From an uncultured Pseudomonadota bacterium (lineage in GTDB: Bacteria > Pseudomonadota > Alphaproteobacteria > Rs-D84): 64,000 nt of DNA. Where the stretch lies: assembly GCA_949290785.1 (NCBI GenBank), contig CASETE010000006.1:62001-126000 (forward strand), read 5' to 3'. Made by a program: the position numbers and the translations under genes. Positions 1,046 through 49,874 of this stretch are shown here, in pieces; position 1 is the first letter of the stretch, and the number at the start of each line of letters is the position of its first letter. The notes beneath the pieces were generated by a model. It saw only the letters and a program-made list of their open reading frames with translations. It was not told where the DNA came from and made no database searches.

Positions 1046-2323
1046 TTATTCGTTGCTTAATTTTTTTCTTAAGTTATCCCAATAATCTAATCTTTTCTTA
1101 ATTTCGCGTTCAAAACCGCGTTCTATTGGATGATAATATTTTTGCCGGGACATTTTTTCCGGAAAACAGTTTTGTCCGCTGAAACCAGATTTTGTATCTG
1201 GTTCGTAAACGTATCCGTCACCATAACCCATTTCTTTCATCATTTTTGTTGGTGCGTTTAGTATGTTTTTAGGTGGCATCAAACTGCCTGTATCCCTTGC
1301 TGAGCTGTATGCAGACATTTGTGCGCGATAGTTCGCGGTGCTTTTGGGTGCAGTGCCAAGATAGATTACCAGTTCTGTTAAGGCAAGGTCTCCTTCGGGG
1401 CTGCCCATTCTCTCGTACAGTTGCCAAGCCGTAAGGGCCATCTGCATCGCGTTTGGGTCGGCAAGACCTATGTCTTCCATGGCAAAACGACTGAGCCTGC
1501 GAAATAAATACATTGGATCTTGACCAGATATCATCATTCTGGCTGTCCAATACAAGGCTGCATCTGTATCGCTTGCACGTAAAGATTTATGTACTGCGGA
1601 AATTAAATTATAATGCTCGTCGCCGTGTTTATCTGATAACGGTGCGCGCTTTTGTATCGCTGCGTCCAATGCTTCCGGAGACAGCATTTCCTTAAAATTT
1701 GCAGAAAGTAAATATTCAACAGTGTTTAATAAAAATCTTGCGTCGCCATCGGACATTTGCGCAAGGTGCAATCTTGCTTTATCGTCCAATGGTAAAGATT
1801 TATTTAAAAATTGTTCTGCGCGCGACATTAAAGTCATTAAATCTGTACTTGATAGCGGTTGCAAGACCCCAATGTGACAACGTGAAATCAGCGCGTTATT
1901 TAAATTAAAACTGGGGTTTTCGGTTGTTGCGCCCATAAACACAACCGTTCCATCTTCTAGATATGGTAATAGTGTGTCTTGTTGTGTTTTATTAAAACGA
2001 TGGATTTCATCAATAAAAAGCAATGTATTTCGTCCTATTTCCCGGTTCATGCGGGCGGCTTCCATTGCTTTCTTGATGTCGGATGTACCAGAAAAAACAG
2101 CGGACATTGGTACAAAGTCCATGTCAACAGACTTTGCCAAAGCACGTGCAATCGTCGTTTTTCCGCATCCGGGGGGTCCCCATAAAATCAAATTGGACAG
2201 CTTGTGGTTGTCCACCATTCTTCTTACAAGACCATTTTCCCCTAGTAATTGGGTTTGACCAACAATGTCATCAATTGTCGTCGGGCGCATTAAATCTGCA
2301 AGTGGTCTATTTTCTGTCTTCAT
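1046..2323 (-). CDS. rarA: Replication-associated recombination protein A (RarA/MgsA), AAA+ ATPase
   Basis: This 425-residue AAA+ ATPase belongs to the RarA/MgsA/WRNIP1 family, which acts at stalled replication forks. Near the N-terminus are PTTIDDIVGQ, Walker A GPPGCGKT (about residues 50-57), Walker B LLFIDEIHRF and sensor 1 GATTENPSF. The C-terminal half carries the family tetramerisation region, ending with the HPIERGFEREIKKRLDYW signature. Length and motifs are complete. The gene is convergent with fabD, the stops being three bases apart. A TAAAAT box lies six bases before the ATG and no Shine-Dalgarno is seen, so it may be another short-leader transcript. Confidence 0.95.
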   Translation of the reverse strand: MKTENRPLADLMRPTTIDDIVGQTQLLGENGLVRRMVDNHKLSNLILWGPPGCGKTTIARALAKSVDMDFVPMSAVFSGTSDIKKAMEAARMNREIGRNTLLFIDEIHRFNKTQQDTLLPYLEDGTVVFMGATTENPSFNLNNALISRCHIGVLQPLSSTDLMTLMSRAEQFLNKSLPLDDKARLHLAQMSDGDARFLLNTVEYLLSANFKEMLSPEALDAAIQKRAPLSDKHGDEHYNLISAVHKSLRASDTDAALYWTARMMISGQDPMYLFRRLSRFAMEDIGLADPNAMQMALTAWQLYERMGSPEGDLALTELVIYLGTAPKSTANYRAQMSAYSSARDTGSLMPPKNILNAPTKMMKEMGYGDGYVYEPDTKSGFSGQNCFPEKMSRQKYYHPIERGFEREIKKRLDYWDNLRKKLSNE

Positions 2324-10722: not shown

Positions 10723-12300
10723 ATGCGTAATGGTTTAAGTAAAGATTTAATTGTTCGTGTATTAGGTGTCGCGCCAAAATATACTTTGGCAGAGTTAGAA
10801 GAAAAATATCCCCCACGTGATTTGCCAGAAGGGGCTTTCGTTACGCGTTTTGCACCGAGTCCGACCGGGTATATGCATATAGGTGGTTTATATCAGGCCT
10901 TGATTGACTGTAAATTGGCGCAGCAATCGGGTGGGGTTTTTATGTTGCGCATAGAAGACACAGACACCAAGCGCGAGGTCGCGGATTCCGTTAAAATCAT
11001 AGAAGATTCAATGCACAGATTCGGACTTCAATATAACAATGATGAAAAATATGGACCTTATTATCAGTCAAAACGTAAGGATATTTATCATAGCGTTGCG
11101 GCAGATTTATTGGCACGTGGATTGGCGTATCCTTGCTTTTTGACAGCGGAAGATATGGAAAAAATACGCGAAAATCAAAAAGCAGCAGGATTTGCAACAG
11201 GTATTTATGGAGAGTTTGCACGTGACCGCAATTTAACAGAAGAAGAAATAATTGCGCATTTGGATAAAGGTGAAATTCCAACGATTCGTTTGTATTCAAT
11301 GGGTAATCCAGAAAATAGAATTTTTTGCAAAGACGCCGTTCGTGGTTCTATCGGATTCCCAGAAAATAATGAAGATATTGTTTTGATTAAATCTAATGAT
11401 GGATTGCCTACGTATCATTTTGCGCATTTATGCGATGACCATTTTATGCGTACTACGCACGTGGTGCGTGGAGAAGAATGGTTGCCTTCGTTCCCGCTAC
11501 ATATACAGTTGTTTCGTATGATGGGGTGGACACCGCCTATGTATATTCATACATCTACTATTGATAAAATTGATTCGGAAACAGGTAAACAAAGAAAATT
11601 ATCAAAACGCCATGACCCAGAAGCAAATGTTGCGTTTTTCTTGGCAGATGGTTGGCCGACCGAGGCTGTGTTGGAGTATCTCGGTAATATTGCCGCATCT
11701 GGTTATGAAGAAGCAAAAATGAAGGGGCAGGTTAAGTCTATTTGGGAATATGAAATGCGCCCAAAGAAAATACCTATGTCTGGTGCGTTATTTGATATGA
11801 AAAAATTAGAATGGTGGGCAAAAGAATTTATTGCGTCGTTGGCAGTTGACGATCTTGTAAAGCGCGTTCGTGATTGGGCAGATGAATATGATTCTGCTTG
11901 GGCAAAAAGAATTAGTAGCAATCCAGAATATCTGAAAAATATACTAGCAATTGAACGAGATAATCCAAAACGTATTCGTAAAGATTTTATTACTTGGAAG
12001 CAAACTTTACAGGAAATATCTTACTTCTGGGACGATTTGTTTGCTCCAAATAAAGAGTATAATTTTAATTCTGATTTATTATCTGCATTTTTAGAAAACT
12101 TTGATATAGCAGACGATAAAGACGTTTGGTGGGGAAAGATAGTTTCAATTGCGACAGAAAAAGGTGTAAGTAATGGAGAGGTTGCAATGAACTTGCGCGT
12201 TGCGCTGACAGGTCGCACGAATACACCAGACTTGTATTCTATTATGCAGGTAATGGGAAAAGATAAGGTTATTAATCGTATAAAGGAAATAATACAATGA
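10723..12300 (+). CDS. gltX: Glutamyl-tRNA synthetase, clostridial-type with N-terminal extension
   Basis: A 525-residue class I synthetase charging tRNA-Glu. The HIGH motif is in PSPTGYMHIGGLYQAL (about residues 46-60) and the KMSKS motif is KLSKR (around residue 292). About 40 residues precede the catalytic domain, ending KYPPRDLPEGAFVTRFAPSPTG. That extension, LRIEDTDTKREV and HFAHLCDDHFMRTTHVVRGEEW match from memory the longer GltX of Clostridia rather than typical alphaproteobacterial GltX, suggesting horizontal replacement. Because gatCAB is also present, the enzyme may be non-discriminating and also charge tRNA-Gln. The stop overlaps the next gene by four bases (ATGA). Confidence 0.95.
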   Translation: MRNGLSKDLIVRVLGVAPKYTLAELEEKYPPRDLPEGAFVTRFAPSPTGYMHIGGLYQALIDCKLAQQSGGVFMLRIEDTDTKREVADSVKIIEDSMHRFGLQYNNDEKYGPYYQSKRKDIYHSVAADLLARGLAYPCFLTAEDMEKIRENQKAAGFATGIYGEFARDRNLTEEEIIAHLDKGEIPTIRLYSMGNPENRIFCKDAVRGSIGFPENNEDIVLIKSNDGLPTYHFAHLCDDHFMRTTHVVRGEEWLPSFPLHIQLFRMMGWTPPMYIHTSTIDKIDSETGKQRKLSKRHDPEANVAFFLADGWPTEAVLEYLGNIAASGYEEAKMKGQVKSIWEYEMRPKKIPMSGALFDMKKLEWWAKEFIASLAVDDLVKRVRDWADEYDSAWAKRISSNPEYLKNILAIERDNPKRIRKDFITWKQTLQEISYFWDDLFAPNKEYNFNSDLLSAFLENFDIADDKDVWWGKIVSIATEKGVSNGEVAMNLRVALTGRTNTPDLYSIMQVMGKDKVINRIKEIIQ

Positions 12301-31949: not shown

Positions 31950-33249
31950 CTTCACCACGTAAGGATGCCTTGTTGGCATCTGTAATACGTATCTTTGCCA
32001 ATTGTTTAACAGGCATATTTTTTGGTGTATCTACGATACATTGTTGCATATATGGCGTCCGATATACGATATGATTACCTGTTTTGTCTGGGCCTTCGCA
32101 TAAACATTCCATTGTTTTGCCGACGCAAGATTCGTTGAATGCACGTTGTAGTTCGTTTAAATAAGAATCTAGTTTTGCCAAACGTTCTGCTTTAATCGCT
32201 TCTGGAATTTGATCTTTCATCAGTGCAGCAGCGGTATGTGGGCGCGGCGAATATTTAAATGAATAAGAATTTATATACTTTATTTTGCGAGCAATTTCCA
32301 TTGTCTGTTCAAAATCTTGGTCTGTTTCCCCTGGGAAGCCTACAATGAAATCGCTGGATATTTGAATGTCAGGGCGCGCTGATTTTAATTTGTCAACTAT
32401 ATCTATATATAGATCCAGACCGTAAGGACGATTCATTCTTGTCAATACATTCTGTGAGCCACTTTGTATAGGCATGTTTAAAAAAGGTAAAAGTTTAGGT
32501 TCTGTTTTAAATATGTCTATCAGGTCATCGGTCATTTCTGTTGGATAACTGGATGTAAAGCGAATGCGCTTAATAGATTCTAGTTTTGCTGTTTCTTTGA
32601 TTAAATCTGATAATCTGTAAATTTTACCTGTCGTTTCATCAGTGTATTTATATCCATTAACATTTTGACCTAGAAAACAAATCTCTATGGCACCAGTATT
32701 GGCGGCATGTGTTGTGTCTTTTATCACATCTTCAAAAGGTCTGGATAATTCGCGACCGCGAGTATAGGGTACAATGCAATACGTACAACAATGGTTACAA
32801 CCTTCTTGAATAGGTATATATGCGACAGCAGGGGACTTTTCCATCTGTGGTAATTCATCGAATTTTTCAAGTCCCGTTAAATCAATGTTTAATAATTTTG
32901 TATCCGGATTTTTTAATATTTCTGGTAATTTATGATAACTTTGCGGTCCTAAAACGAAATTTAAATCGGGAATTCTTTTAAAAGCACTGCCACCAGTTTC
33001 TCGCGCAACACAGCCCACTATGCCGAATAGGGCAGAGGGCTTTTTTGCCTGTCTTATGCGGCCAAGAGCAGAAAAAACTTTATTTGTCGCTTTTTCGCGA
33101 ACTGCGCACGTATTTAAAATTATTATGTCCGCATCGGATAAAATGTCCGTTTGTTCAAATCCGTGCGCGTTTAACATTGTCGCAATTCTTTGACCGTCAT
33201 AAACGTTCATTTGACAGCCAAAAGTATGAATGAAGAATTTTTTTTTCAT
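31939..33249 (-). CDS. miaB: tRNA-2-methylthio-N6-dimethylallyladenosine synthase MiaB
   Basis: A 436-residue radical-SAM methylthiotransferase modifying A37 of tRNAs. The N-terminal UPF0004 domain has FGCQMN, NTCAVREKA and GCVARE (three cluster Cys), then the radical-SAM motif GCNHCCTYCIVPYTRGRE, SSYPTEMTD and a C-terminal TRAM domain. It is complete. It is last in the gatB / 62-residue / miaB run, four bases after the small gene. It needs two 4Fe-4S clusters, hence the SUF products. Confidence 0.95.
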   Translation of the reverse strand: MKKKFFIHTFGCQMNVYDGQRIATMLNAHGFEQTDILSDADIIILNTCAVREKATNKVFSALGRIRQAKKPSALFGIVGCVARETGGSAFKRIPDLNFVLGPQSYHKLPEILKNPDTKLLNIDLTGLEKFDELPQMEKSPAVAYIPIQEGCNHCCTYCIVPYTRGRELSRPFEDVIKDTTHAANTGAIEICFLGQNVNGYKYTDETTGKIYRLSDLIKETAKLESIKRIRFTSSYPTEMTDDLIDIFKTEPKLLPFLNMPIQSGSQNVLTRMNRPYGLDLYIDIVDKLKSARPDIQISSDFIVGFPGETDQDFEQTMEIARKIKYINSYSFKYSPRPHTAAALMKDQIPEAIKAERLAKLDSYLNELQRAFNESCVGKTMECLCEGPDKTGNHIVYRTPYMQQCIVDTPKNMPVKQLAKIRITDANKASLRGEVIN

Positions 33250-33253
33250 GGTC

Positions 33254-33442
33254 TTATTTACTTTGTGTTCTTTGATATCTTATAAACTTACGTTTTATGT
33301 CTTGTTCTTTGTAGAAATGCTTTTGTGCGTTTGATTGTTTAATATCCCTGCACGGAAACTTAGGAAGAAAAGGGTTCTTGTCATAGGAAAAGCATTTTGA
33401 AAGAGCTAATATAAATCTATATATTTCTGAGATACCACTCAT
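33254..33442 (-). CDS. Small hypothetical protein between gatB and miaB
   Basis: A 62-residue basic protein that I do not recognise (MSGISEIYRFILALSKCFSY at the start, Lys/Arg/Gln-rich C-terminal half). Support for it being real: TAGGAG at ideal distance before the ATG, 14 bases from the gatB stop and four bases from the miaB start, filling the gap between two co-directional genes. There are two Cys, no signal peptide and no clear membrane segment. Function unknown. Confidence 0.6.
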   Translation of the reverse strand: MSGISEIYRFILALSKCFSYDKNPFLPKFPCRDIKQSNAQKHFYKEQDIKRKFIRYQRTQSK

Positions 33443-33456
33443 ATTTGTCTCCTATA

Positions 33457-34977
33457 TTAAGATAATTTTTTCTTTAATATTTCATTTACAACGGCAGGGT
33501 TCGCTTTTCCGGCGGTTGCTTTCATAACTGCACCAACAAAGAAGCCTAGCAGTCCAACTTTACCGGATTTGTATTGTTCTACCTGGGCGGCATTGGCGGA
33601 AATTACTTCATCTATGGCTTTTTCAATTGCACCTGTATCTGTAATTTGTTTCATGCCGAATTTATCTGCTATTTCTTTTGGTGTGCCTAATTCGCCGTCT
33701 AGCATTTTTATAAATATTTCTTTTGCTTGTTTACCATTAACCTCGTTTGCAGAAATCATATCAACTAATTCTGCCAAATTTGCAGGTGTAATAATTCGCG
33801 CTATGCCACTGTCTGCTGTATCCACAGCGTTTTTTGCATCCCAATTTTCTGGGTGTGCGAACAGTTCGCTTATCATCCAGTTCGCAATAGATTTTGCACG
33901 CGCAGGTTTGTCGCCAACTGCTGCGTCAAACCATTTGGATATATCTGTTGTTTCCGTTAGACGTGCAGCATCATATTCATTTAAACCCATGTTTATGTAA
34001 CGTGCACGTGTTGCAGCGGGAAGTTCTGGCATAGTGTTTTTGATGCGTTCAATTGTTTCTTCGCTGATTTCCAAAGGTAATAAATCTGGGTCTGGAAAAT
34101 AGCGATAATCCAAGGCGTCTTCTTTACTACGCATTACAGACGTTGTTCCCTCTGATTGATTATATCTCATCGTGTCCTGAGATACCGTGCCGCCGTTTTC
34201 ATATATTTCTATCTGGCGACGTGCTTCGTATTCAATTGCAGATTTAATGAATTTGAATGAAACCATATTTTTAGTTTCTGTGCGCGTCCGGAATTCTTTA
34301 GAACCAACCGGTCTTACAGATACGTTTACGTCCGCGCGCATGGAGCCTTCTTCCATATTTGCTTTTGATACACCCAGTGCGCGCGCAATCTCGCGAATTT
34401 CACGTAGATAGCGTTCCGCTTCATCGGGCGATGTTATATAAGAATTATTTTCTGGATTTTTTGTATCCAAAAAAGTAACGATTTCTAATAACGCGACACC
34501 CGTTCTGTTATAATCTGCAAACGACTTGCTGGGGTGCACATCGTGTTTTAATTTTCCCGCGTCTTGTTCCAAATGTGCACGTTCAATTAAAATCTTTTTA
34601 GGTTGTCCGTCGTCGCCCATAATTTCAATCCAGCCACGACCAACAATTGGCGGTTCTTCGGCTGGTTGTGAAATCTGATAACCTTGCGGCAGGTCAGGGT
34701 AGAAGTACTGTTTACGAGCAAATTTGCTTTTCCTGGAAATTTCTGCGTTTAACCCCATGCCCATACGAATCGCTTGTTCAACGCAGAATTCGTTCAAAAC
34801 GGGCAACATTCCAGGCATCGCAACGTCTATCATGGATACCTGTGTGTTTGGGGCAACAGTTGGATTGTAGTCAGCAGATGCACCACTAAAAAGCTTGCTA
34901 TTAGACAGAACTTCTATATGCGTTTCTAAGCCTATGACTAATTCCCAATCTGTTGTTTTGCCTTTTATCGTAAACAT
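33457..34977 (-). CDS. gatB: Aspartyl/glutamyl-tRNA amidotransferase subunit B
   Basis: A 506-residue GatB, the kinase and tRNA-binding subunit of GatCAB, which converts Glu-tRNA-Gln (and Asp-tRNA-Asn) to the amide. Signatures are WELVIGLETHIEVLS, ARKQYFYPDLPQGYQISQ, GVALLEIVT and MEEGSMRADVNVSVR, and the C-terminal YqeY-like tail domain is present. AAGGAA precedes the ATG. It is downstream of gatC and gatA but separated from gatA by an oppositely oriented tRNA-Phe. Confidence 0.97.
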   Translation of the reverse strand: MFTIKGKTTDWELVIGLETHIEVLSNSKLFSGASADYNPTVAPNTQVSMIDVAMPGMLPVLNEFCVEQAIRMGMGLNAEISRKSKFARKQYFYPDLPQGYQISQPAEEPPIVGRGWIEIMGDDGQPKKILIERAHLEQDAGKLKHDVHPSKSFADYNRTGVALLEIVTFLDTKNPENNSYITSPDEAERYLREIREIARALGVSKANMEEGSMRADVNVSVRPVGSKEFRTRTETKNMVSFKFIKSAIEYEARRQIEIYENGGTVSQDTMRYNQSEGTTSVMRSKEDALDYRYFPDPDLLPLEISEETIERIKNTMPELPAATRARYINMGLNEYDAARLTETTDISKWFDAAVGDKPARAKSIANWMISELFAHPENWDAKNAVDTADSGIARIITPANLAELVDMISANEVNGKQAKEIFIKMLDGELGTPKEIADKFGMKQITDTGAIEKAIDEVISANAAQVEQYKSGKVGLLGFFVGAVMKATAGKANPAVVNEILKKKLS

Positions 34978-34989
34978 TTTTATTTTTCC

Positions 34990-35018
34990 TTGCTTTTTTT
35001 CTTTTAGTATTTTATTAT
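34990..35018 (+). promoter_or_regulatory. Promoter of tRNA-Phe
   Basis: TTGCTT (34990-34995), a 17-base spacer and TATTAT (35013-35018) lie 12 bases before the tRNA. It overlaps the untranslated leader of gatB on the other strand. Confidence 0.65.
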
Positions 35019-35030
35019 TCGTTTCGCGTT

Positions 35031-35106
35031 GGCTAGATAGCTCAGTTGGTAGAGCAAGGGACTGAAAATCCCTGTGTCAGTGGTTCGATTCCACTTCTAG
35101 CCACCA
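35031..35106 (+). tRNA. tRNA-Phe (GAA)
   Basis: The acceptor GGCTAGA pairs with TCTAGCC, D arm GCTCAGTTGGTAGAGC, anticodon stem AGGGA/TCCCT with loop CTGAAAA (anticodon GAA), T arm AGTGG-TTCGATT-CCACT; CCA is encoded. It lies in the gatA-gatB gap on the opposite strand, ending four bases from the gatA stop. Confidence 0.97.
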
Positions 35107-35110
35107 TTTT

Positions 35111-36586
35111 TTATTTCCCCATTACTTTTGTCGGTCTGTTATCAATCCCTGCAAACTGTTCAATGTGTTTTGCAAGTTGCAGAACTTTTAAGTCATCAAA
35201 ACGTTTCCCAACAACTTGTATGCCAAGCGGTAAACCGTTATCAGCCAAGCCACATGGTACGCTGCATGCAGGTACGCCGGCCAAATTCATGGCAACCGTA
35301 AATAAATCCAATGCATAGTATTCCAAAGGCGTTAAATCTGAATCCAGTGGCATAGCCGTGCCGGCGCTTGATGGACATAATATTACATCGCATTTTTGAA
35401 ACGCTTGTTCGAAACTTTCAGATATCATACGACGTACACGTGCGGCTTGTAAGAAATAAACTTCATACGATTCGCTGGATAATACAGCCGTTCCTATAAT
35501 CATACGACGTTTTACTTCGTCACCAAATCCAGCCGCGCGGGTCTTCTTATATGTGTCATAAATATCTTTGCCTTCCACGCGAAGCCCGTATCTCATTCCG
35601 TCGTAACGCGCCAAATTAGAAGACGCTTCTGCCGGTGCGATTATATAATACGCAGCCAAAGCGTCTAATATGTTAGGAATAGAGATTTCAATAATTTCGG
35701 CACCAATTGATTTTAAATCGGAAATTCTTGCGTTAAATAATCTTTTCATATCTGCAGATATTGCAACGTCTGCAAATTCTTTTATTATACCAACACGCAA
35801 ATTTTTACCGTCTCCTAAAATTGGTTGAAGCGGTGTATGTGCACTAAATCCGCTATCCGCGCTGGTTGAATCCTTTTTGTCGTGACCCGCCATAGCAGAT
35901 AGCAATAGCGCAGCGTCATCGACAGTTCTGGCTATTGGACCAGGCGTGTCCAAACTTGATGCAAATGCGATACATCCCCAACGGCTGCATAAACCATATG
36001 TGGGCTTCATACCAACCAGACCAGTTATTGCAGATGGAAAACGAATCGAACCGCCGGTATCCGTTCCTGTGCCACCAATGGCCAATCCGGCAGCAACGGC
36101 ACTGGTTGTCCCGCCTGATGAACCGCCAGCAGTTAATCGTTTTTCTAGTTGCCATGGGTTTACAGGTGCACCGAAATAACTTGTCTTGCTGAATGTTCCC
36201 ATTGCAAATTCATCAAGGTTGGTTTTTCCTAATAAAACTGTACCCGTATCAATAAATTTTTGTGAAATCGTTGATTCGTATTCTGGTATAAAATTTTCCA
36301 GCATGCGCGATGCCGCGGTCGTTTTAATACCGCGTGTCGCAAATAAGTCTTTCATTCCAATTGGAATACCGTCCAAGGGCAGAGCGTTACCTGCAGCGTA
36401 ACGTGCATCAGACGCTGCTGCATCTGCCAAGGCGCGTTCAGGTGTCACGGTTATATAGCAGTTTAGTTCTTTACCGTATTGTTCAATCCTGTTCAGGTAT
36501 GCCTTTGTTAGTTCCGTTGAACTAATTTCACCAGATTTTAATTTTTCTAATGCTTCTGTAATAGTTAGGTCTATCATTTTTTTCAC
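35111..36586 (-). CDS. gatA: Aspartyl/glutamyl-tRNA amidotransferase subunit A
   Basis: A 491-residue amidase-signature enzyme, the glutaminase subunit of GatCAB. The Ser-cisSer-Lys triad is visible: Lys in GIPIGMKDLFATRG and Ser residues in GGSSGGTTSAVAAG with GTDTGGSIRFPS. The start could be GTG at 36586 or ATG at 36577 (MIDLTITEALEKL); the latter matches the usual family N-terminus, and neither has a strong Shine-Dalgarno. It follows gatC by 18 bases or slightly more. Confidence 0.97.
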   Translation of the reverse strand: MKKMIDLTITEALEKLKSGEISSTELTKAYLNRIEQYGKELNCYITVTPERALADAAASDARYAAGNALPLDGIPIGMKDLFATRGIKTTAASRMLENFIPEYESTISQKFIDTGTVLLGKTNLDEFAMGTFSKTSYFGAPVNPWQLEKRLTAGGSSGGTTSAVAAGLAIGGTGTDTGGSIRFPSAITGLVGMKPTYGLCSRWGCIAFASSLDTPGPIARTVDDAALLLSAMAGHDKKDSTSADSGFSAHTPLQPILGDGKNLRVGIIKEFADVAISADMKRLFNARISDLKSIGAEIIEISIPNILDALAAYYIIAPAEASSNLARYDGMRYGLRVEGKDIYDTYKKTRAAGFGDEVKRRMIIGTAVLSSESYEVYFLQAARVRRMISESFEQAFQKCDVILCPSSAGTAMPLDSDLTPLEYYALDLFTVAMNLAGVPACSVPCGLADNGLPLGIQVVGKRFDDLKVLQLAKHIEQFAGIDNRPTKVMGK

Positions 36587-36604
36587 TTTGATTTTTATTA
36601 TAGT

Positions 36605-36898
36605 TTATTCGTCCATAACTTTTGGTACTGCAAAATAGCCACGTGATACACCCGCGGTATCGGGCGTATTGGCAAGTACTAAATCGCGTATATTCCCGTC
36701 CGTTACAACGTCACTGCGTTGCGGCAATTTATGTTCCGCCGGACTTAACATTGGTTCTATGCCACTAGTATTAATTTGTTGCAATTTGTTTAACCATTCA
36801 ATTACAGAGTCAATATTCATTTGTTCCAGTTTGTCTTCTGAAATGTCTATCTTTATTAAATCTGCAAATTTGTTCAATTGTTGCTTGCTAAAAGCCAT
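36605..36898 (-). CDS. gatC: Aspartyl/glutamyl-tRNA amidotransferase subunit C
   Basis: A 97-residue GatC, the belt subunit stabilising GatAB: NKFADLIKIDISEDKLEQM, then GIEPMLSP and the C-terminal RGYFAVPKVMDE (the family ends in F-x-V-P-K-V). I chose the ATG at 36898, preceded by TAGGA, over an upstream in-frame start that would add 12 residues. Confidence 0.93.
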   Translation of the reverse strand: MAFSKQQLNKFADLIKIDISEDKLEQMNIDSVIEWLNKLQQINTSGIEPMLSPAEHKLPQRSDVVTDGNIRDLVLANTPDTAGVSRGYFAVPKVMDE

Positions 36899-36947
36899 TT
36901 TCAATCCTATTCTATATGTAAATAAATTAAACAAGGAAAATTATACA

Positions 36948-37397
36948 ATGATTTTGCCAGATTTCAAGGCTTTTCCAATAAAAGGGCGCATTTTAGGCGT
37001 TGACTGGGGGGCGCGAAGAACGGGAATTGCGGTGTCAGATGATGCACGTGATTTTGTATTTGTGCGTCCTGCCATAGAAGTTAAAAAAAATGGCGATTCT
37101 TTGGCAAAAAAAATAGTAGAAATTGCAGAAAAAGAAAAGGTTGTGGGAATTGTTTTGGGACTGCCGTTGTATGTTGATGGATCGGATTCAGAAACAACAA
37201 AGAAAGTTCGTGATTGTGCAGCGGAATTGACAGGTTATACTGATTTACCAATAATATTCATAGAAGAAAATTTAACCAGCTTTGCAGCGCAAGAAAAATT
37301 GGGAAAAGTTAGGATTAATGATTTAAAACAAAAGTTAGATTCTGAATCTGCAGCAGTAATTTTAGAAAATGCAATTTCAATGTTAAAAAGATTATGA
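36948..37397 (+). CDS. ruvX: Holliday junction resolvase-like RuvX (YqgF)
   Basis: A 149-residue RNase H-fold protein: ILGVDWGARRTGIAVSD (first catalytic Asp), GIVLGLPLYVDGSD, FIEENLTSFAA and a C-terminal Asp/Ser pair (KLDSESAAVILENAI). YqgF/RuvX acts in pre-16S rRNA 5' processing. The start is the ATG at 36948 with CAAGGAAA upstream. It is divergent from gatC and followed by a terminator. Confidence 0.93.
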   Translation: MILPDFKAFPIKGRILGVDWGARRTGIAVSDDARDFVFVRPAIEVKKNGDSLAKKIVEIAEKEKVVGIVLGLPLYVDGSDSETTKKVRDCAAELTGYTDLPIIFIEENLTSFAAQEKLGKVRINDLKQKLDSESAAVILENAISMLKRL

Positions 37398-37402
37398 TTA
37401 TA

Positions 37403-37426
37403 AAAGCGGTATAAAAATACCGCTTT
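37403..37426. terminator. Bidirectional terminator between ruvX and the AI-2E transporter gene
   Basis: AAAGCGGTAT and ATACCGCTTT form a 10-base stem around AAAA; it sits directly between two convergent stops. Confidence 0.85.
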
Positions 37427-37427
37427 C

Positions 37428-38477
37428 TCAATCTTCTTCACGTTTGTCTGGTATTTTTCCGTCCGCAGAAAGTAATATCGCAATCCAACGCGTTGAATCA
37501 AATTGTGCCGTTATGATGAACGTCGCAACTAATAGCGGCACGCTGAAAAACATGCCGGCGATGCCCCATATCATACCCCAAAAAACTAAATTTATTAATA
37601 TGGCAAGCGTGGATAAGTTTAATGTTTTACCGGTAAACTTTGGTTCTAAGATATTACCGAATAAAATCTGTAAACCGATTAGACCAAGTGCGGTTAGTAC
37701 TGGCTGATGCAACGAAGGGGCTGTAATAAGCGTGTACATTATAGGTAGACCACATGCAACGATTGCGCCGATTGTTGGTATATAACTGGTGATGAATACA
37801 ATGAATGCCCAGATGCCTGCAAATTGAACGTCTATCATTTCAAGCCAAAAATAAGATAAAACGCCTGTTATGCCAGATAATAAAGTCTTCATAAACAGGT
37901 ATTTCTTCATGTTTTCGTCAATGCTATCTAGTATATAGCGCATTTTTTTTGATTGATTTTTATTCGGAAATAACGCAGAAAATTTTTTGTTAAACGTACT
38001 TTGTTCTATGAACATGAATAACATATATATTAAAACCATGCCCATAGAGGTAACTATCGTCGCCGCCGATGCGCCGATGCTGGTCGCCAGTTGTGTGAAG
38101 TTAGGTAACAAACTGGCATCAAATTTGAACCCGAAATAATTTGATAAATAGTTACCAAATATAATCAGTTTATGCTGCAATGCCGGCAATGCCATAGATA
38201 ATTCTTTGAACATGGGTTGTATTTGTGTAACGAATAAATACCCGACGCCAAACAATACTGCAGCAGCAATTATATTTGATATCCAATCAAAACTTTTTGC
38301 TGTGATTGGATGCTTTGCTTCTGATTCTTTGGTGTGAAACGGAAATAAAATACGACAGTATGCAGATATGGCGTTTATTAAATACCATAAAAAAGCAGCA
38401 ACTAATATAGGTATTAAAATAGAACGACCAAGCCACAAGAAAAATATTATCGCAACAAATAAAATTAACCCATTCAT
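37428..38477 (-). CDS. AI-2E family transporter (PerM/YdiK-like permease)
   Basis: A 349-residue membrane protein with about eight helices and the family layout: two N-terminal helices, an amphipathic domain with repeated helices (about residues 95-165), and the C-terminal GLIGLQILFGNILEPKFTGKTLNLSTLAILINLVFWGMIWGIAG signature. Members export varied small molecules or ions; AI-2 transport is shown for only a few, so the substrate is open. Convergent with ruvX. Confidence 0.88.
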   Translation of the reverse strand: MNGLILFVAIIFFLWLGRSILIPILVAAFLWYLINAISAYCRILFPFHTKESEAKHPITAKSFDWISNIIAAAVLFGVGYLFVTQIQPMFKELSMALPALQHKLIIFGNYLSNYFGFKFDASLLPNFTQLATSIGASAATIVTSMGMVLIYMLFMFIEQSTFNKKFSALFPNKNQSKKMRYILDSIDENMKKYLFMKTLLSGITGVLSYFWLEMIDVQFAGIWAFIVFITSYIPTIGAIVACGLPIMYTLITAPSLHQPVLTALGLIGLQILFGNILEPKFTGKTLNLSTLAILINLVFWGMIWGIAGMFFSVPLLVATFIITAQFDSTRWIAILLSADGKIPDKREED

Positions 38478-38530
38478 AAATCACTCCTATGGCTTGTGTT
38501 CGTGTACATAGCAACGTTTTTTTGTGCTTA

Positions 38531-39433
38531 TTATAACATTGCGATTTCGTTTATGCTTATGTTTAATGTTTCTGGTGAATTAACGGCGGAATACATTATA
38601 AAAATAATCAATAAAACTAATACAACTATATTCAATATAATTGCAAAGTTTACATACTTATTGTTCAGTAAAGTTTTAAATTTTTTAACGCCTATGCTGA
38701 ATATCCATAGGGCGGATATAATTGCTAAGCAATAAGTAAGAAGTACCATGTTTAATCCAAAGAATAAACTGGATAGCGCCACACAAATCGTAAAAACGAG
38801 GGCGGTGTTTATTGTATTTTTTGTTGTCCAATGTGTAAGTTTATCGTACCATTTGCATTTAATTGGCAACACTGTTTTTTGTTTTTTGTCTTCTGGTAAA
38901 ATGTATCCAGGTATCCACAGCAATCCAAACCCAAATGGCATACTTGCTATGATTTTCCATGGCTTTATACCCAACGTACAGCAGCGTTTATATTTTGCAT
39001 AAATGTTTGAAAGTAATAATCCGCAAAGATACATATATACAATGCCAATTAATAACATTAAAAGTAAAAATGATGCGTTAAAATGCGTGCTTAGCATCAT
39101 CATCTGATAACTTATTGAATTAGCATTATACATGATTATCAATGTTGATATTATAAAGGCAAAAGACAATATAAATATTTGCAAATTATTTAGTGCTATA
39201 AAACTATGTCTATCTAAATTTTCTGTAGGCATATGTTTTAACATATAAAAAGCACCTATTATAAACGATAAAAGTATTAAACTTGGCAATACCCATTGAG
39301 GAATATAAATCATTGATGATAAGAATGTATATAGAAAGCCAAACAGTGTCATTAAGCAAAATGACAAAAGTCCAAATTTAAGCGGTTTCCATAAAAGCCA
39401 ATTCAGCATAGTCATAGATTTTTTTTCTGCCAT
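38531..39433 (-). CDS. Hypothetical polytopic membrane protein
   Basis: A 300-residue protein with about eight hydrophobic helices (for example SLILLSFIIGAFYML, ILSFAFIISTLIIMY, FLLLMLLIGIVYMYLCG, FAIILNIVVLVLLIIFI). A loop with Cys-Cys (KYKRCCTLGIKPWK) lies mid-protein, followed by SMPFGFGLLWIPGYILP. I recognise no family. It starts with ATG after AAAGGA and lies about 20 bases before the sufC 3' end on the same strand, so it may be part of a sufB-sufC transcript. Confidence 0.6.
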   Translation of the reverse strand: MAEKKSMTMLNWLLWKPLKFGLLSFCLMTLFGFLYTFLSSMIYIPQWVLPSLILLSFIIGAFYMLKHMPTENLDRHSFIALNNLQIFILSFAFIISTLIIMYNANSISYQMMMLSTHFNASFLLLMLLIGIVYMYLCGLLLSNIYAKYKRCCTLGIKPWKIIASMPFGFGLLWIPGYILPEDKKQKTVLPIKCKWYDKLTHWTTKNTINTALVFTICVALSSLFFGLNMVLLTYCLAIISALWIFSIGVKKFKTLLNNKYVNFAIILNIVVLVLLIIFIMYSAVNSPETLNISINEIAML

Positions 39434-39457
39434 TTTTTATCCTTTCGTTGTTACGTT

Positions 39458-40135
39458 TTATTTTATCATAACTTTACCGCCGGATAAAGTGGTTATATGG
39501 GTTGGTGATACAAGGTCGGTAAAGTGTTGTTGATGACTGATAAATAAAAATGTTGTATCTGTCATGGAATGCATAACATCTACAATTTGATTTTGTACTT
39601 GGTGGTCCGCGCCGGAATCGGGTTCGTCCAATATGGCAAATTTTGGTGAAATTAATAACAGTCTTAATAACATCAATTTTTTCCTCTCTCCGCCAGAAAA
39701 ACCTACGTTTATACTGCGGTTTAACCAATCTCTTGGAATGTCCAGTCTGTCGCGAATTTCTTCTATTCGCGTTAAAAACTGGCCCATAGAAAGTTCTTTG
39801 CCTGTATTAAAATGCATATGCGCTGAAAGAGAGTGTTTTAAAAAACTTAGCACCGTTAACCCCGGAATTTCCGGAACATTTTGTCCGCTTAAGAATATCC
39901 CAAATAAGGCACGTGATGTCGGGCTTTCGTTTGTAATGTCACGTCCGTCAAAGATTATTTTCCCCGCGTCTATTTTATAATCTGGCGCGCCGGCGATTGT
40001 GTTTACAAGCGTTGATTTGCCAGAACCATTATGACCAGATAATAAATGTCTGGCACCTGTTTCAACAGTTATATTTATATCAGACAATAATTCTTTACCG
40101 TTTAAAGATACAGAAAGATTTTGTATTTCTAGCAT
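39458..40135 (-). CDS. sufC: Fe-S cluster assembly ATPase SufC
   Basis: A 225-residue ABC ATPase, slightly short for SufC. Walker A is LSGHNGSGKSTL, the signature is VGFSGGERKKLMLLRLLL and Walker B is FAILDEPDSGAD, the last being characteristic of SufC. It energises the SufB scaffold. It is 12 bases after sufB. Confidence 0.95.
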   Translation of the reverse strand: MLEIQNLSVSLNGKELLSDINITVETGARHLLSGHNGSGKSTLVNTIAGAPDYKIDAGKIIFDGRDITNESPTSRALFGIFLSGQNVPEIPGLTVLSFLKHSLSAHMHFNTGKELSMGQFLTRIEEIRDRLDIPRDWLNRSINVGFSGGERKKLMLLRLLLISPKFAILDEPDSGADHQVQNQIVDVMHSMTDTTFLFISHQQHFTDLVSPTHITTLSGGKVMIK

Positions 40136-40147
40136 ATTTTTATCCTG

Positions 40148-41494
40148 TTATTTTGATATTGCCATTTGAATGAGTTGTTTTGATTCAACCAAAAACTCCA
40201 TAGGTAATCTAGAAATAATCGGGGATGCAACAGCGCCGATTATTAATGCGGTTGCCATATCTTCTGATATTCCCGATTGCATCAAGTATAATAACTGGGT
40301 TGCATCTATTGCACCGGTACTTGCCTCGTGACTTTGACTGTTTAAACCGTTCGAATGAATGATTGTTGGAAGAGTGTTTGCAATAGCGTTTTTTCCTATG
40401 ATTTTTGTGTCGCACTTTGATGCGTTTTTACCGTGCTCGCCGCTAAAACTAACAAGACTGCGAAAAGTTTGTTTTGAATAATCCATGGCAACACCATAAG
40501 ACAATATGTTTGATACAGTATTATTGCCAATGTGTATCATCTTTGTGCCTGTGTCTGCCTGTTGAGCGCCGCTGGTTATACTTAACGAATAAAAGTCGCT
40601 TTTTGAATCATCGCCCGCCAATATGGTAGAAGGGTATTTCCAAGTCATTGCAGAACCTATTTCAACCTGTGTCCAATCAAGGCGCGCCTTCTTGCCACAG
40701 CGACCGCGTTTCGTTACAAAATTAAGTATTCCGCCAACAGATTTTGGCCTTTCTGATTTTTTGTTGTATGTGCTTGTTTTTCCCGCATACCAGTTTTGAA
40801 CGGTTGCATATTTTACCGTTGCGTTATCTTGTACGATTATTTCTACGACGCCACTATGTAATTGATGATTCGGACGACGGGGCGCGCTGCAACCTTCCAT
40901 ATAACTTAATGTTGATTCTTTGTCGGCAATTATTAATGTCCTTTCAAATTGACCTATCTTGGCTGTTTCTATTCTGAAATAACTGGCAAGGTCTATTGGG
41001 CATTTGACTTTTGGAGGAACGTAAACAAAAGTTCCATCAGAAAATACCGCAGCGTTCAAAGCCGCAAAAAAATTATCCGTAGATGGTACAACCGTCCCAA
41101 GATATTTTTTTACTAATTCAGGATATTTTTTGACCGCTTCGGAAAAAGGAAGAAATATTATTCCTAATTTCTCTAGTTCGGCGCTGTATGATGTATGAAC
41201 GGATTTACTGTCTATTACGGTATCTGTTGCCATTCCCAGCAGTGCTCGTTGCTCGCTTTCTGGTAAACCCATTTTTTCGTATGTTTGCTGCAAATCAGAG
41301 TTATCAATTGGTTGTACTTCATTGTAATAATTTAAATTATCGTAATCTATTTTATCGTATTCTATTTCTGCCCAATGAGGCTCATGCATTTTCTTCCAGT
41401 TGTTAAAAGCATCAAGACGCCATTTTAATAACCAATCTGGTTCTTGACGATTGGCAGAAATTTCTTTTATAAGATTTTCTGATAACTTCGGCAT
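40148..41494 (-). CDS. sufB: Fe-S cluster assembly scaffold SufB
   Basis: A 448-residue SufB: GTVVPSTDNFFAALNAAVFSDGTFVYVPPKVKCPIDLASYFRIE is diagnostic, followed by SYMEGCSAP, NWYAGKTSTYNKKSERPKSVG and RSLVSFSGEHGKNASKCDTKIIG. It supplies the scaffold on which the 4Fe-4S cluster forms with SufC. The partner SufD is not encoded next to it or anywhere else in the window. Confidence 0.95.
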   Translation of the reverse strand: MPKLSENLIKEISANRQEPDWLLKWRLDAFNNWKKMHEPHWAEIEYDKIDYDNLNYYNEVQPIDNSDLQQTYEKMGLPESEQRALLGMATDTVIDSKSVHTSYSAELEKLGIIFLPFSEAVKKYPELVKKYLGTVVPSTDNFFAALNAAVFSDGTFVYVPPKVKCPIDLASYFRIETAKIGQFERTLIIADKESTLSYMEGCSAPRRPNHQLHSGVVEIIVQDNATVKYATVQNWYAGKTSTYNKKSERPKSVGGILNFVTKRGRCGKKARLDWTQVEIGSAMTWKYPSTILAGDDSKSDFYSLSITSGAQQADTGTKMIHIGNNTVSNILSYGVAMDYSKQTFRSLVSFSGEHGKNASKCDTKIIGKNAIANTLPTIIHSNGLNSQSHEASTGAIDATQLLYLMQSGISEDMATALIIGAVASPIISRLPMEFLVESKQLIQMAISK

Positions 41495-42040
41495 TTATTC
41501 GTTCGTTTGCAAGGCTAGTTGCTTTGCTTGTGTAAAAAAGGTTAAAGATTGCCCCAGCAGACCGTCTGTAAAAGTTGCAGATAAAATGCCTTCTGGGTCG
41601 GTGGTAGTCAAGTGATGTAAAAATGTATCCGCGCGATTTATATAATTGTCTATGCAACGAGATACTTCTGAATCAAGTTTTATGCAACGGCGTAGTTTTT
41701 CTAATGCAAATGGGTTCTTGGCATATTCGTCCATTATCCCGCCAAGTGCACGCCATAGAGGGTGTTCGGCGGTGTTGCGCGGCATAACGTCAATCGCTGC
41801 CATAATTGGAATCAGATTTTGTAACAGGTCTTGATAAATCATTTCTGCATTTTCTGAAATGGCGTTCGTTGCAGATTTGTTTTTTAATACGGATTGTATC
41901 TTAACAATCAAATTGTATTGGTGGGTCAGGGTTTTGTTTATTTCTTTTATGCGCGTATGAATTTTAAACATAAAATACAATAAACCGATGGAAATAACGA
42001 TAAGTGTTAAAATACAAAATAAAAACAATGTATTATTCAT
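41495..42040 (-). CDS. Hypothetical membrane-anchored protein upstream of sufB
   Basis: A 181-residue protein with one N-terminal membrane helix (about residues 3-24), a coiled coil (HTRIKEINKTLTHQYNLIVKIQSVL) and a helical C-terminal domain with MPRNTAEHPLWRALGGIMDEYAKNPFALEKLRRCI. Not recognised. Its stop is immediately followed by the sufB start codon, so the two are co-translated, which hints at a link with Fe-S assembly or simply a shared promoter. Confidence 0.6.
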   Translation of the reverse strand: MNNTLFLFCILTLIVISIGLLYFMFKIHTRIKEINKTLTHQYNLIVKIQSVLKNKSATNAISENAEMIYQDLLQNLIPIMAAIDVMPRNTAEHPLWRALGGIMDEYAKNPFALEKLRRCIKLDSEVSRCIDNYINRADTFLHHLTTTDPEGILSATFTDGLLGQSLTFFTQAKQLALQTNE

Positions 42041-48519: not shown

Positions 48520-48587
48520 ATGTGCGGGTGTCTTTTGCACTCTTGCGATGGCAGGAAACTCTTTTAAGGAAGGAAAGGAGAAACGAC

Positions 48588-49874
48588 ATGCAGGTAGCGG
48601 TAAAAAAAACAAAGACTGACTTGGAACAAATCAAGGGGGCCATCGCCGCGAAGTTAGATTCTGCAAGTTATTCTTCTTGGATTGCGCCGTTACAATTTGA
48701 TGTTGTTGATGATGTTTTGGTTTTAACTGCGCAAAATCAATTCTCTGCTGATTTCATCGGCAGTGTTCATTCCGGCGTTTTATCATCTGTTGCATCTGAT
48801 TTTGGTTTAGGAATAAAAATTTGTGTACGTGGTGCCAAATTGCCTGCATCAGTTGCAAACGATAATAACGTTCAATCTTATTCACCTGCAACAGTTGAAC
48901 GTGTTGCAAATGTTTCTGTAAAAACTGCGTTTGATTCGTTTATTGCGTCTGAAGAAAACGCATTTGTTGTATCTGCGTGTAAAAAATTATCGGCAGGTGC
49001 GGTTACGTTTTCGCCTTTGTTTATTTATGGACCTGCGGGTTGCGGTAAGTCTTTGTTGGCGGACTGCATTAATTCTGCTGCGCAGGGGCGTACAATCAAG
49101 ATGTCTGGCGGGCAATTCGTTGCAGAGTTTACACGCAGCCTGCATGATAGAACTGTTTTTGCATTCAAAGATTTCTGCCGTAATTGTGATACTTTTATAT
49201 TGGACGACGTTCAGACATTGTCTGGTAAACGTGCGACATGCGAAGAATTCATTCAATTAATAATTGATTTACGCGCAGCGGGTAAAAACATTGTTTTGAC
49301 ATCTAATGCGGCGCCGAATAATTTGTCTGGTTTTGATCGTCGTATGCAATCTTTATTGGCATCTGGTTTGGTTGCAGATGTTGTTGCGCCGAATGCGAAT
49401 GTAAAGCGTGTTATGTTAATGCGTGCGGGCGTATCATCGGATGTTGCATCTGCTTTGGCGACGCGTATTGCAGGCGACGGTCATTTGGTTGGCGGCGTTG
49501 CCAACAAGATAAAGACGTATTCGGACTTGATGGGTGAAACAGTAACATTGGACATTGCGCAACGTTTATTATCAGATACCTTGCAAAAGGCCAAGACACC
49601 TGTTGCAATGGTTCGTGGGATGTGTGAAAAGTTGGGTGTATCATACGATGCGGTATGTGGCAAGGGTCGCAGTCGCAGTTTGGTATTGGCGCGTCAAATG
49701 ATGATGTCTGTATTAAAAAGCGCGACGGACATGTCTTTGACAGAGATTGGCTATGTATGTGGTGATCGTGATCACGCGACAGTATTGTATGCGATAAATC
49801 AAATTGAAAAATTGAAAAAGACGGATTTAGTATTAGCAGCGCAGATAAATCAAATGATAGAAGAATGCAGATAA
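48588..49874 (+). CDS. dnaA: Chromosomal replication initiator DnaA, compact and divergent
   Basis: A 428-residue DnaA, shorter than the usual 450-500 because linker domain II is small. Domain I (about residues 10-80), Walker A GPAGCGKS (148-155), Walker B ILDDVQ (204-209) and the domain IV signature CGDRDHATV (391-399) are clear. By eye, two ATP-linked arginines are replaced: the box VII Arg finger, normally in RLxSRF, reads RMQSLLASGL (Leu256), and the sensor 2 motif RELEGAL reads GHLVGGV. The start is the ATG at 48588, with AAAGGAG ideally placed; the frame is open further upstream. dnaN is 12 kb away. Confidence 0.92.
   Translation: MQVAVKKTKTDLEQIKGAIAAKLDSASYSSWIAPLQFDVVDDVLVLTAQNQFSADFIGSVHSGVLSSVASDFGLGIKICVRGAKLPASVANDNNVQSYSPATVERVANVSVKTAFDSFIASEENAFVVSACKKLSAGAVTFSPLFIYGPAGCGKSLLADCINSAAQGRTIKMSGGQFVAEFTRSLHDRTVFAFKDFCRNCDTFILDDVQTLSGKRATCEEFIQLIIDLRAAGKNIVLTSNAAPNNLSGFDRRMQSLLASGLVADVVAPNANVKRVMLMRAGVSSDVASALATRIAGDGHLVGGVANKIKTYSDLMGETVTLDIAQRLLSDTLQKAKTPVAMVRGMCEKLGVSYDAVCGKGRSRSLVLARQMMMSVLKSATDMSLTEIGYVCGDRDHATVLYAINQIEKLKKTDLVLAAQINQMIEECR

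Follow-up and report, generated by a model that had tools for sequence, protein, structure and literature searches.

DnaA proteins lacking the Arg finger and the sensor 2 arginine in an alphaproteobacterial family of the order Rs-D84

The dnaA locus and its product

The 64,000-nucleotide stretch analysed here (the window; contig CASETE010000006.1, positions 62,001 to 126,000) comes from an uncultured alphaproteobacterium and carries a dnaA gene at 48588..49874. The gene, which encodes 428 residues followed by a stop codon, is the sole DnaA gene found in its genome (999,534 bases, 97% complete). Its product has the architecture of bacterial DnaA proteins but lacks two arginines, the Arg finger of box VII and the arginine of sensor 2. 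All dnaA features described below lie on the + strand of the window.

Domains I, III and IV (DnaA_N, Bac_DnaA and Bac_DnaA_C) pass the Pfam gathering cut-offs, and the set PF11638, PF00308 and PF08299 is shared with canonical bacterial DnaA. The DNA-binding helix-turn-helix of domain IV spans residues 345-406 (49620..49805; PF08299, E 6e-18), with the positions of R399, R407 and H434 kept. The match to TIGR00362, the NCBIfam DnaA equivalog model, covers residues 13-425 and model positions 2-435 of 437 (E 5e-75), at a score of 253.1 bits that lies under the 343.9-bit cut-off and leaves the protein short of equivalog status. The name DnaA is retained for it as a divergent member, on the grounds of architecture, fold and single-copy orthology. 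The start at 48588 is preferred over an upstream GTG at 48522, because residues M1-Q2 are near-invariant when the window protein is aligned with 51 relatives.

An AlphaFold2 model obtained with 52 family sequences (mean pLDDT 80, pTM 0.55) features helices at residues 251-257 (box VII) and 298-315 (sensor 2). The closest folds are the DnaA entries 8btg, 2z4r, 1l8q, 3r8f, 2hcb and 8bv3 (VIA Z 24.7-25.5), with root-mean-square deviations of 1.9-2.6 for domain III alone and 11-12 when domain IV is included. The protein is not an Hda/HdaA, which would have about 230 residues and no box-binding domain, as it has 428 residues and a domain IV, and scores 51 bits versus 194.8 with TIGR03420. Two proteins of the genome match PF00308, DnaA itself and RuvB; the search for a second dnaA thus found none.

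A 100% identical protein is present in one public metagenome-assembled genome. The named relatives among 80 loci, at 64-79% identity, belong to Candidatus Enterousia, from which we infer that the genus of the window (code g1) is Enterousia, in the GTDB order Rs-D84. The order, Enterousia included, has reduced genomes according to PMC12306168 (papers are cited here by PMC number); the word dnaA is absent from that paper, which names Enterousia. PF00308 matches were found in 136/142 genomes of the order, or 135 if the weak, RuvB-sized match of G141 is set aside.

Loss of the Arg finger and of the sensor 2 arginine

We aligned 222 DnaA rows, adding E. coli K-12 DnaA as reference. The family of the window accounts for 134 rows (37 from Enterousia, 17 from other genera and 80 from genome contigs), corresponding to 109 distinct proteins. 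Controls are 74 DnaA proteins from other alphaproteobacterial orders. Of these, 73 were drawn from 91 non-family genomes with a match (30 best-scoring, 40 hand-picked, many of them low-scoring, and 3 others), and one, G054, came from a separate genome search. L001, L002, L057 (a fragment of G051), L058, L159-L171 and the duplicates L179 and L186 were excluded from the counts.

The first-pass annotation, made from the window alone, had read the box VII and sensor 2 motifs by eye as lacking both arginines, with the Walker motifs and the DNA-binding signature kept. The translation of 48588-49874 indeed reads R252-M-Q-S-L256-L-A-S-G-L261 and G298-H299-L-V-G-G-V304, and the alignment with E. coli DnaA bears out the double loss and extends it to 109/109 family proteins. 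At the Arg-finger position (E. coli R285), occupied by Leu256 (49353..49355), the family has L in 90, V in 18 and I in 1 of 109 proteins, while 72/74 controls have R. The sensor 2 helix starts at G298-H299-L-V-G-G-V-A-N-K307 (49479..49508), as placed by the alignment with E. coli and by the predicted helix 298-315. His299 aligns with the sensor 2 residue R334, a position with H in 108 and N in 1 of 109 family proteins and R in 74/74 controls. K307 is present in 109/109. The alignment placed no other arginine at either column, the outcome that would have overturned the annotation: Arg252 aligns with R281 of box VII and is not a finger, and Arg293, a candidate substitute sensor, falls in a column that is commonly basic anyway (R or K in 61/74 controls, R in E. 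coli).

Both arginines are missing from all 134 family rows, which argues against chance or an assembly error as the cause. In the 14 rows from other families of the order, R is found at the finger in 12 and at sensor 2 in 11. As sampled, this state is fixed in the family of the window and peculiar to it. Elsewhere in the order, finger and sensor 2 residues are E and K in G040, F and R in G038, R and G in G047, and R and A in G052. Among other alphaproteobacterial orders, G199 (L247) and G208 (L236) have lost the finger (L or H) and kept the sensor 2 arginine; their box VII reads PPRLRSLMASGL and EPRLRGHMASGL, respectively, with no arginine gained at the position of R251. The box VII finger R285 is called invariant in PMC8287927. 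We found no published report of a natural DnaA without an Arg finger, as judged mostly from titles and the openings of abstracts.

Other altered, gained and conserved residues

Further changes affect positions that handle nucleotide or DNA. Asn240 (49305..49307) occupies the sensor 1 position (E. coli D269), which is N in 78 and D in 8 of 109 family proteins and D in 70/74 controls. Thr182 (49131..49133) replaces the hydrophobic residue at the position of V211, in the H-motif that binds single-stranded DNA. V, I, L or M is found there in 9/109 family proteins, 74/74 controls and 14/14 rows from other families of the order. The R342 position is K in 109/109 and the T435 position is Ala in 107/109 family proteins.

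Other motifs are conserved. Walker A (GPAGCGKS, residues 148-155, 49029..49052) has K154 in 109/109 proteins, and Walker B (ILDD, residues 204-207, 49197..49208) has D206 (D235) in 109/109 and D207 (D236) in 106/109. Arg198 (49179..49181), at the AID-1 position R227, is R in 106/109. K214, at the K243 position, and F52, at the F46 position, are each kept in 108/109. DnaA-box recognition positions are similarly kept (R399 in 108, R407 in 107, D433 in 99 and H434 in 107 of 109), and the DNA-binding signature GDRDHATVLYA is intact in the window protein, as the first reading had it. The positions of sensor 1, R342, R399, R407, D433, H434 and T435 presumably have the DnaA roles that we assign to them. 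For V211, R227, K243, R281, R285, L290, R334 and F46, roles are taken from PMC5742627. The pattern is selective, in that the predicted nucleotide readers are replaced and the predicted subunit and DNA contacts are kept.

Three DnaA proteins from other genera of the family (L141, L148 and L152) carry IIDG in place of the usual Walker B motif and have lost its second Asp; ATP hydrolysis is probably dead in them, to judge from this motif. G113, a genome that shares its genus (code g20) with the IIDG genomes and is 92% complete, has no DnaA match.

Box VII (residues 251-261, RRMQSLLASGL, 49338..49370) combines kept and gained residues. R252, at the R281 position, is R in 94, H in 13 and S in 2 of 109 proteins, and L261, at the AID-2 position L290, is kept in 106/109. 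R251, which directly precedes R252, is a gained residue (R 101, K 3 and H 5 of 109), the controls having mostly E or D in this column and R or K in 1/74. Two other arginines were gained, R229 (R in 91, R or K in 93 of 109; R or K in 0/74 controls) and R279 (R in 99, R or K in 103 of 109; R or K in 2/74 controls).

These gains are the basis of a different account, according to which Arg251 (or Arg229 or Arg279) is a relocated finger that reaches the ATP of the neighbouring subunit, His299 partly replaces sensor 2, and the ATP switch persists. All three arginines are common in the family and rare in the controls, H299 is almost invariant, and in the AlphaFold2 model R251 is predicted to share the short helix 251-257 with the lost finger. 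However, R251 lies outside the finger column, and G199 and G208 lost the finger without gaining R251. Moreover, sensor 1 is altered and Hda was not found (see below), so that part of the switch seems gone. We regard a relocated finger as rather unlikely.

Selection on dnaA

Enterousia dnaA is under purifying selection. The ratio of nonsynonymous to synonymous substitution rates (dN/dS, Nei-Gojobori) has a median of 0.11 over 145 pairs with dS < 1.2; sequences recur across pairs, and a single genome is repeated in some. No internal stops were found in the dnaA matches listed. These data bear on the view that the gene has simply degenerated in a reduced genome, or that sequencing was at fault, and that no new functional state has arisen. 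Reduced genomes are indeed a feature of the order (PMC12306168), and finger or sensor 2 losses are scattered among G040, G038, G047 and G052. Yet the replacements are specific and extend over 109/109 proteins, and strict conservation together with a dN/dS of about 0.11 argues against decay. Degeneration is largely refuted by this conservation, and we consider it highly improbable.

Hda and the sensor 2 arginine

Hda was searched for with TIGR03420. No genome of the class reached the model cut-off, matches were listed to an E value of about 3e-6, and within the family of the window the search covered Enterousia. Among the matches listed, an Hda-size protein was found in 0/47 Enterousia genomes. 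In contrast, a separate open reading frame (ORF) of 213-315 residues matched the model in 6/6 genomes of genus g4 of the order, and an ORF of the same kind in 35/39 genomes of the class (13/14 and 22/25 in two sets), again among the matches listed. Three Enterousia genomes (G010, G029 and G140) have four TIGR03420 matches each, only some of which are among those listed.

The genome of the window has three matches: DnaA, a 425-residue RarA-like AAA protein encoded at window positions 1046-2323, which is neither an Hda nor a second DnaA, and a third match, weaker than those listed, that is probably RuvB. The first-pass annotation had proposed a search for Hda/HdaA. No protein of Hda size is present among the matches listed for this genome, although a very divergent Hda could escape the search.

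Sensor 2 is not Arg in 38 aligned genomes (35 of Enterousia, G040, G047 and G052), and Hda is listed in 0/38 of them, whereas the sensor 2 arginine is present in 37/37 aligned genomes with Hda. Among genomes with both kinds of data, sensor 2 loss is thus seen only where Hda was not found. Finger loss does not follow the same rule, as G199 and G208, which lack the finger, keep an Hda-like gene. In E. coli, regulatory inactivation of DnaA (RIDA) requires R334 and not R285, and functional initiation complexes can do without R334 (PMC5742627). That sensor 2 loss, rather than finger loss, accompanies the absence of Hda fits the requirement of E. coli RIDA for R334.

The predicted origin

GC skew was computed for the complete Enterousia chromosome G067 from 20 pieces of 15 kb each and a further 35 kb. 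The skew changes to positive values near 642 kb and back to negative ones somewhere between 115 and 150 kb. As sampled, it is hence regular, and its two switches are separated by roughly half the chromosome. The switch to positive coincides with rsmG and a parA-parB pair, while dnaA maps at 443 kb. NCBIfam matches at this switch are over the cut-off for RsmG and the ParB domain; a ParA-type ATPase falls below its cut-offs. As a separate observation, the GC skew of the window is clearly positive over most of its length and about zero for 10 kb at 32001-42000, possibly an inversion or an island.

The sequence TTATNCACA occurs 68 times in G067 without forming a cluster, no 500 bases containing more than 2, and the predicted origin at 641-654 kb has no match to TTATCCACA even when one mismatch is allowed. 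Without a box cluster, any action of DnaA at this origin is putative. Control genomes, too, have only weak box clusters (for G250, among the sites listed), so the missing boxes of G067 are suggestive only and do not prove a changed origin.

A different element marks the site. Palindromes resembling parS, TTTCA[CT][AG]TGAAA, occur twice in the 335 kb of G067 that were read, both times at the skew switch. A conserved module, with a consensus of roughly TAAtNtaTTGNtNTTAgtNNNTTTTT from 47 instances in relatives, follows each palindrome on a single side. Palindrome and module are located at L263:9963-10020 and 10964-11020, at the predicted Enterousia origin; in the genome of the window, at L272:1282 and 1376, upstream of parA; and upstream of parA also in L265-L294. 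In 28/29 genomes (30 loci, one not oriented), the 350 bases before parA contain at least one palindrome; there are two copies in 19 genomes, one in 9 and none in 1.

The lack of boxes in G067, the loss of the H-motif in the family and the conserved parS-linked module at the predicted origin would all suit a DnaA that is a DNA-binding regulator rather than an initiator, with another factor firing one origin close to parAB. The 97% complete genome G035, from family f2 of the order, points the same way, as it has no match with P0001, PF00308, PF08299 or TIGR03420, and may have lost dnaA; G040, the other f2 genome, does encode DnaA (finger E, sensor 2 K). Replication that does not depend on DnaA is known from cyanobacteria, but there it goes with irregular skew (PMC7198777), and the sampled skew of G067 is regular. 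The F46, AID-1, AID-2 and box VII positions are kept, DnaA is kept in 135/142 genomes of the order, and no alternative initiator was identified. Given also the weak box clustering of the controls, a DnaA that does not initiate seems to us improbable.

Discussion

We favour the reading that Enterousia DnaA is functional and nucleotide-blind, freed from the Hda-driven ATP/ADP switch, and that initiation is less ATP-controlled; we put its probability at roughly one half. As far as sequences can tell, this family of gut bacteria with small genomes may start DNA copying without an ATP switch of the usual kind. What is observed directly comprises the substitutions and their fixation in the proteins sampled, selection on dnaA and the lack of Hda among the matches listed in 47 Enterousia genomes; the near-invariance of the replacements, a dN/dS of 0.11, the kept contacts and the IIDG Walker B of three relatives also support this reading. 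Less ATP-controlled initiation had been anticipated by the first-pass annotation. Both arginines are fixed as lost, no second dnaA was found and no Hda is listed, all of which sustain that suggestion; that Arg251 may be a relocated finger counts against it.

The sequence of events might be as follows. In the family ancestor, the Arg finger would have been replaced by Leu or Val, the sensor 2 Arg by His and the sensor 1 Asp mostly by Asn, while the P-loop, Walker B, the remaining DnaA-DnaA contacts and the box-binding domain would have been retained. Enterousia DnaA would still bind ATP, but the bound nucleotide would not be reported to the neighbouring subunit, nor would Hda stimulate a switch-off. 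Assembly would be nucleotide-independent and rely on AID-1, AID-2, K243 and box VII. The frequency of initiation would be set by the amount of DnaA (synthesis, titration and proteolysis) or by access to the origin, and not by the ATP/ADP ratio.

Several points weigh against this reading. Arg251, Arg229 and Arg279 might restore a contact in trans, and H299 may touch the gamma-phosphate. As a new, near-invariant Arg251 stands by R252 of box VII, some ATP sensing in trans may persist. Laboratory mutants also speak for caution: a Caulobacter sensor 2 allele, R357A, is unable to replace dnaA (PMC3193534), and replacement of the Arg finger by alanine makes the homologues tested defective in strand separation (PMC8287927). 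The absence of a box cluster in G067 and of TTATCCACA-like sites at its predicted origin belongs here as well. Moreover, G048, G049, G044, G181, G232 and G242 keep both arginines without a clear Hda, and the only Hda match of G039 has 133 residues; completeness is just 70-72% for G052 and G044. The link between sensor 2 and Hda rests on few events, the tree requiring 4 changes per trait. This tree was obtained by a quick method from 72/222 rows, and long branches (f5 and f2) blur the succession of losses within the order. On the other hand, E. coli DnaA-ADP forms working orisomes on a modified oriC, albeit with over-initiation (PMC6727663).

A broader proposal, which we hold tentatively and with less than even confidence, is that this Rs-D84 family initiates replication with a nucleotide-blind DnaA, in which the Arg finger, both ATP sensors and the H-motif for single-stranded DNA are gone along with Hda, at a predicted origin that has parS-linked repeats in place of a canonical box cluster. 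Timing would perhaps depend on DnaA dose or ParABS, and not on ATP. If this is true, a natural family makes it directly testable whether DnaA-ATP serves the mechanics of initiation or its timing only, a matter of debate. The data also suggest how, in a single order with reduced genomes, an Hda-regulated DnaA may have given way to a DnaA without Hda and ATP sensors.

Comparison with known systems helps to place Enterousia DnaA. It shares with the canonical proteins of E. coli, B. subtilis and Caulobacter domains I, III and IV, Walker A and B and the fold, as well as AID-1, AID-2, K243, R281 of box VII and the DNA-binding positions. It differs from them in lacking the Arg finger and the sensor 2 arginine, in a sensor 1 that is mostly Asn, in an H-motif that is mostly non-hydrophobic and in a score below the TIGR00362 cut-off. 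E. coli DnaA(R334A) and Caulobacter DnaA(R357A) have likewise lost the sensor 2 arginine needed for Hda-driven hydrolysis. However, these are laboratory alleles, and the Caulobacter mutant over-initiates and cannot be the only copy (PMC3193534), whereas in Enterousia the loss occurs naturally, is fixed among the proteins sampled and is joined to finger loss, with Hda not listed. Orisomes on E. coli oriC-allADP (PMC6727663) similarly involve initiation machinery without DnaA-ATP; there, an over-initiating origin was engineered, while in Enterousia it is the protein that is altered. Finally, reliance on regulated DnaA is relaxed in cyanobacteria as well (PMC7198777), but in these organisms dnaA is lost or dispensable and the skew is irregular, whereas in Enterousia dnaA is under selection and the sampled skew is regular.
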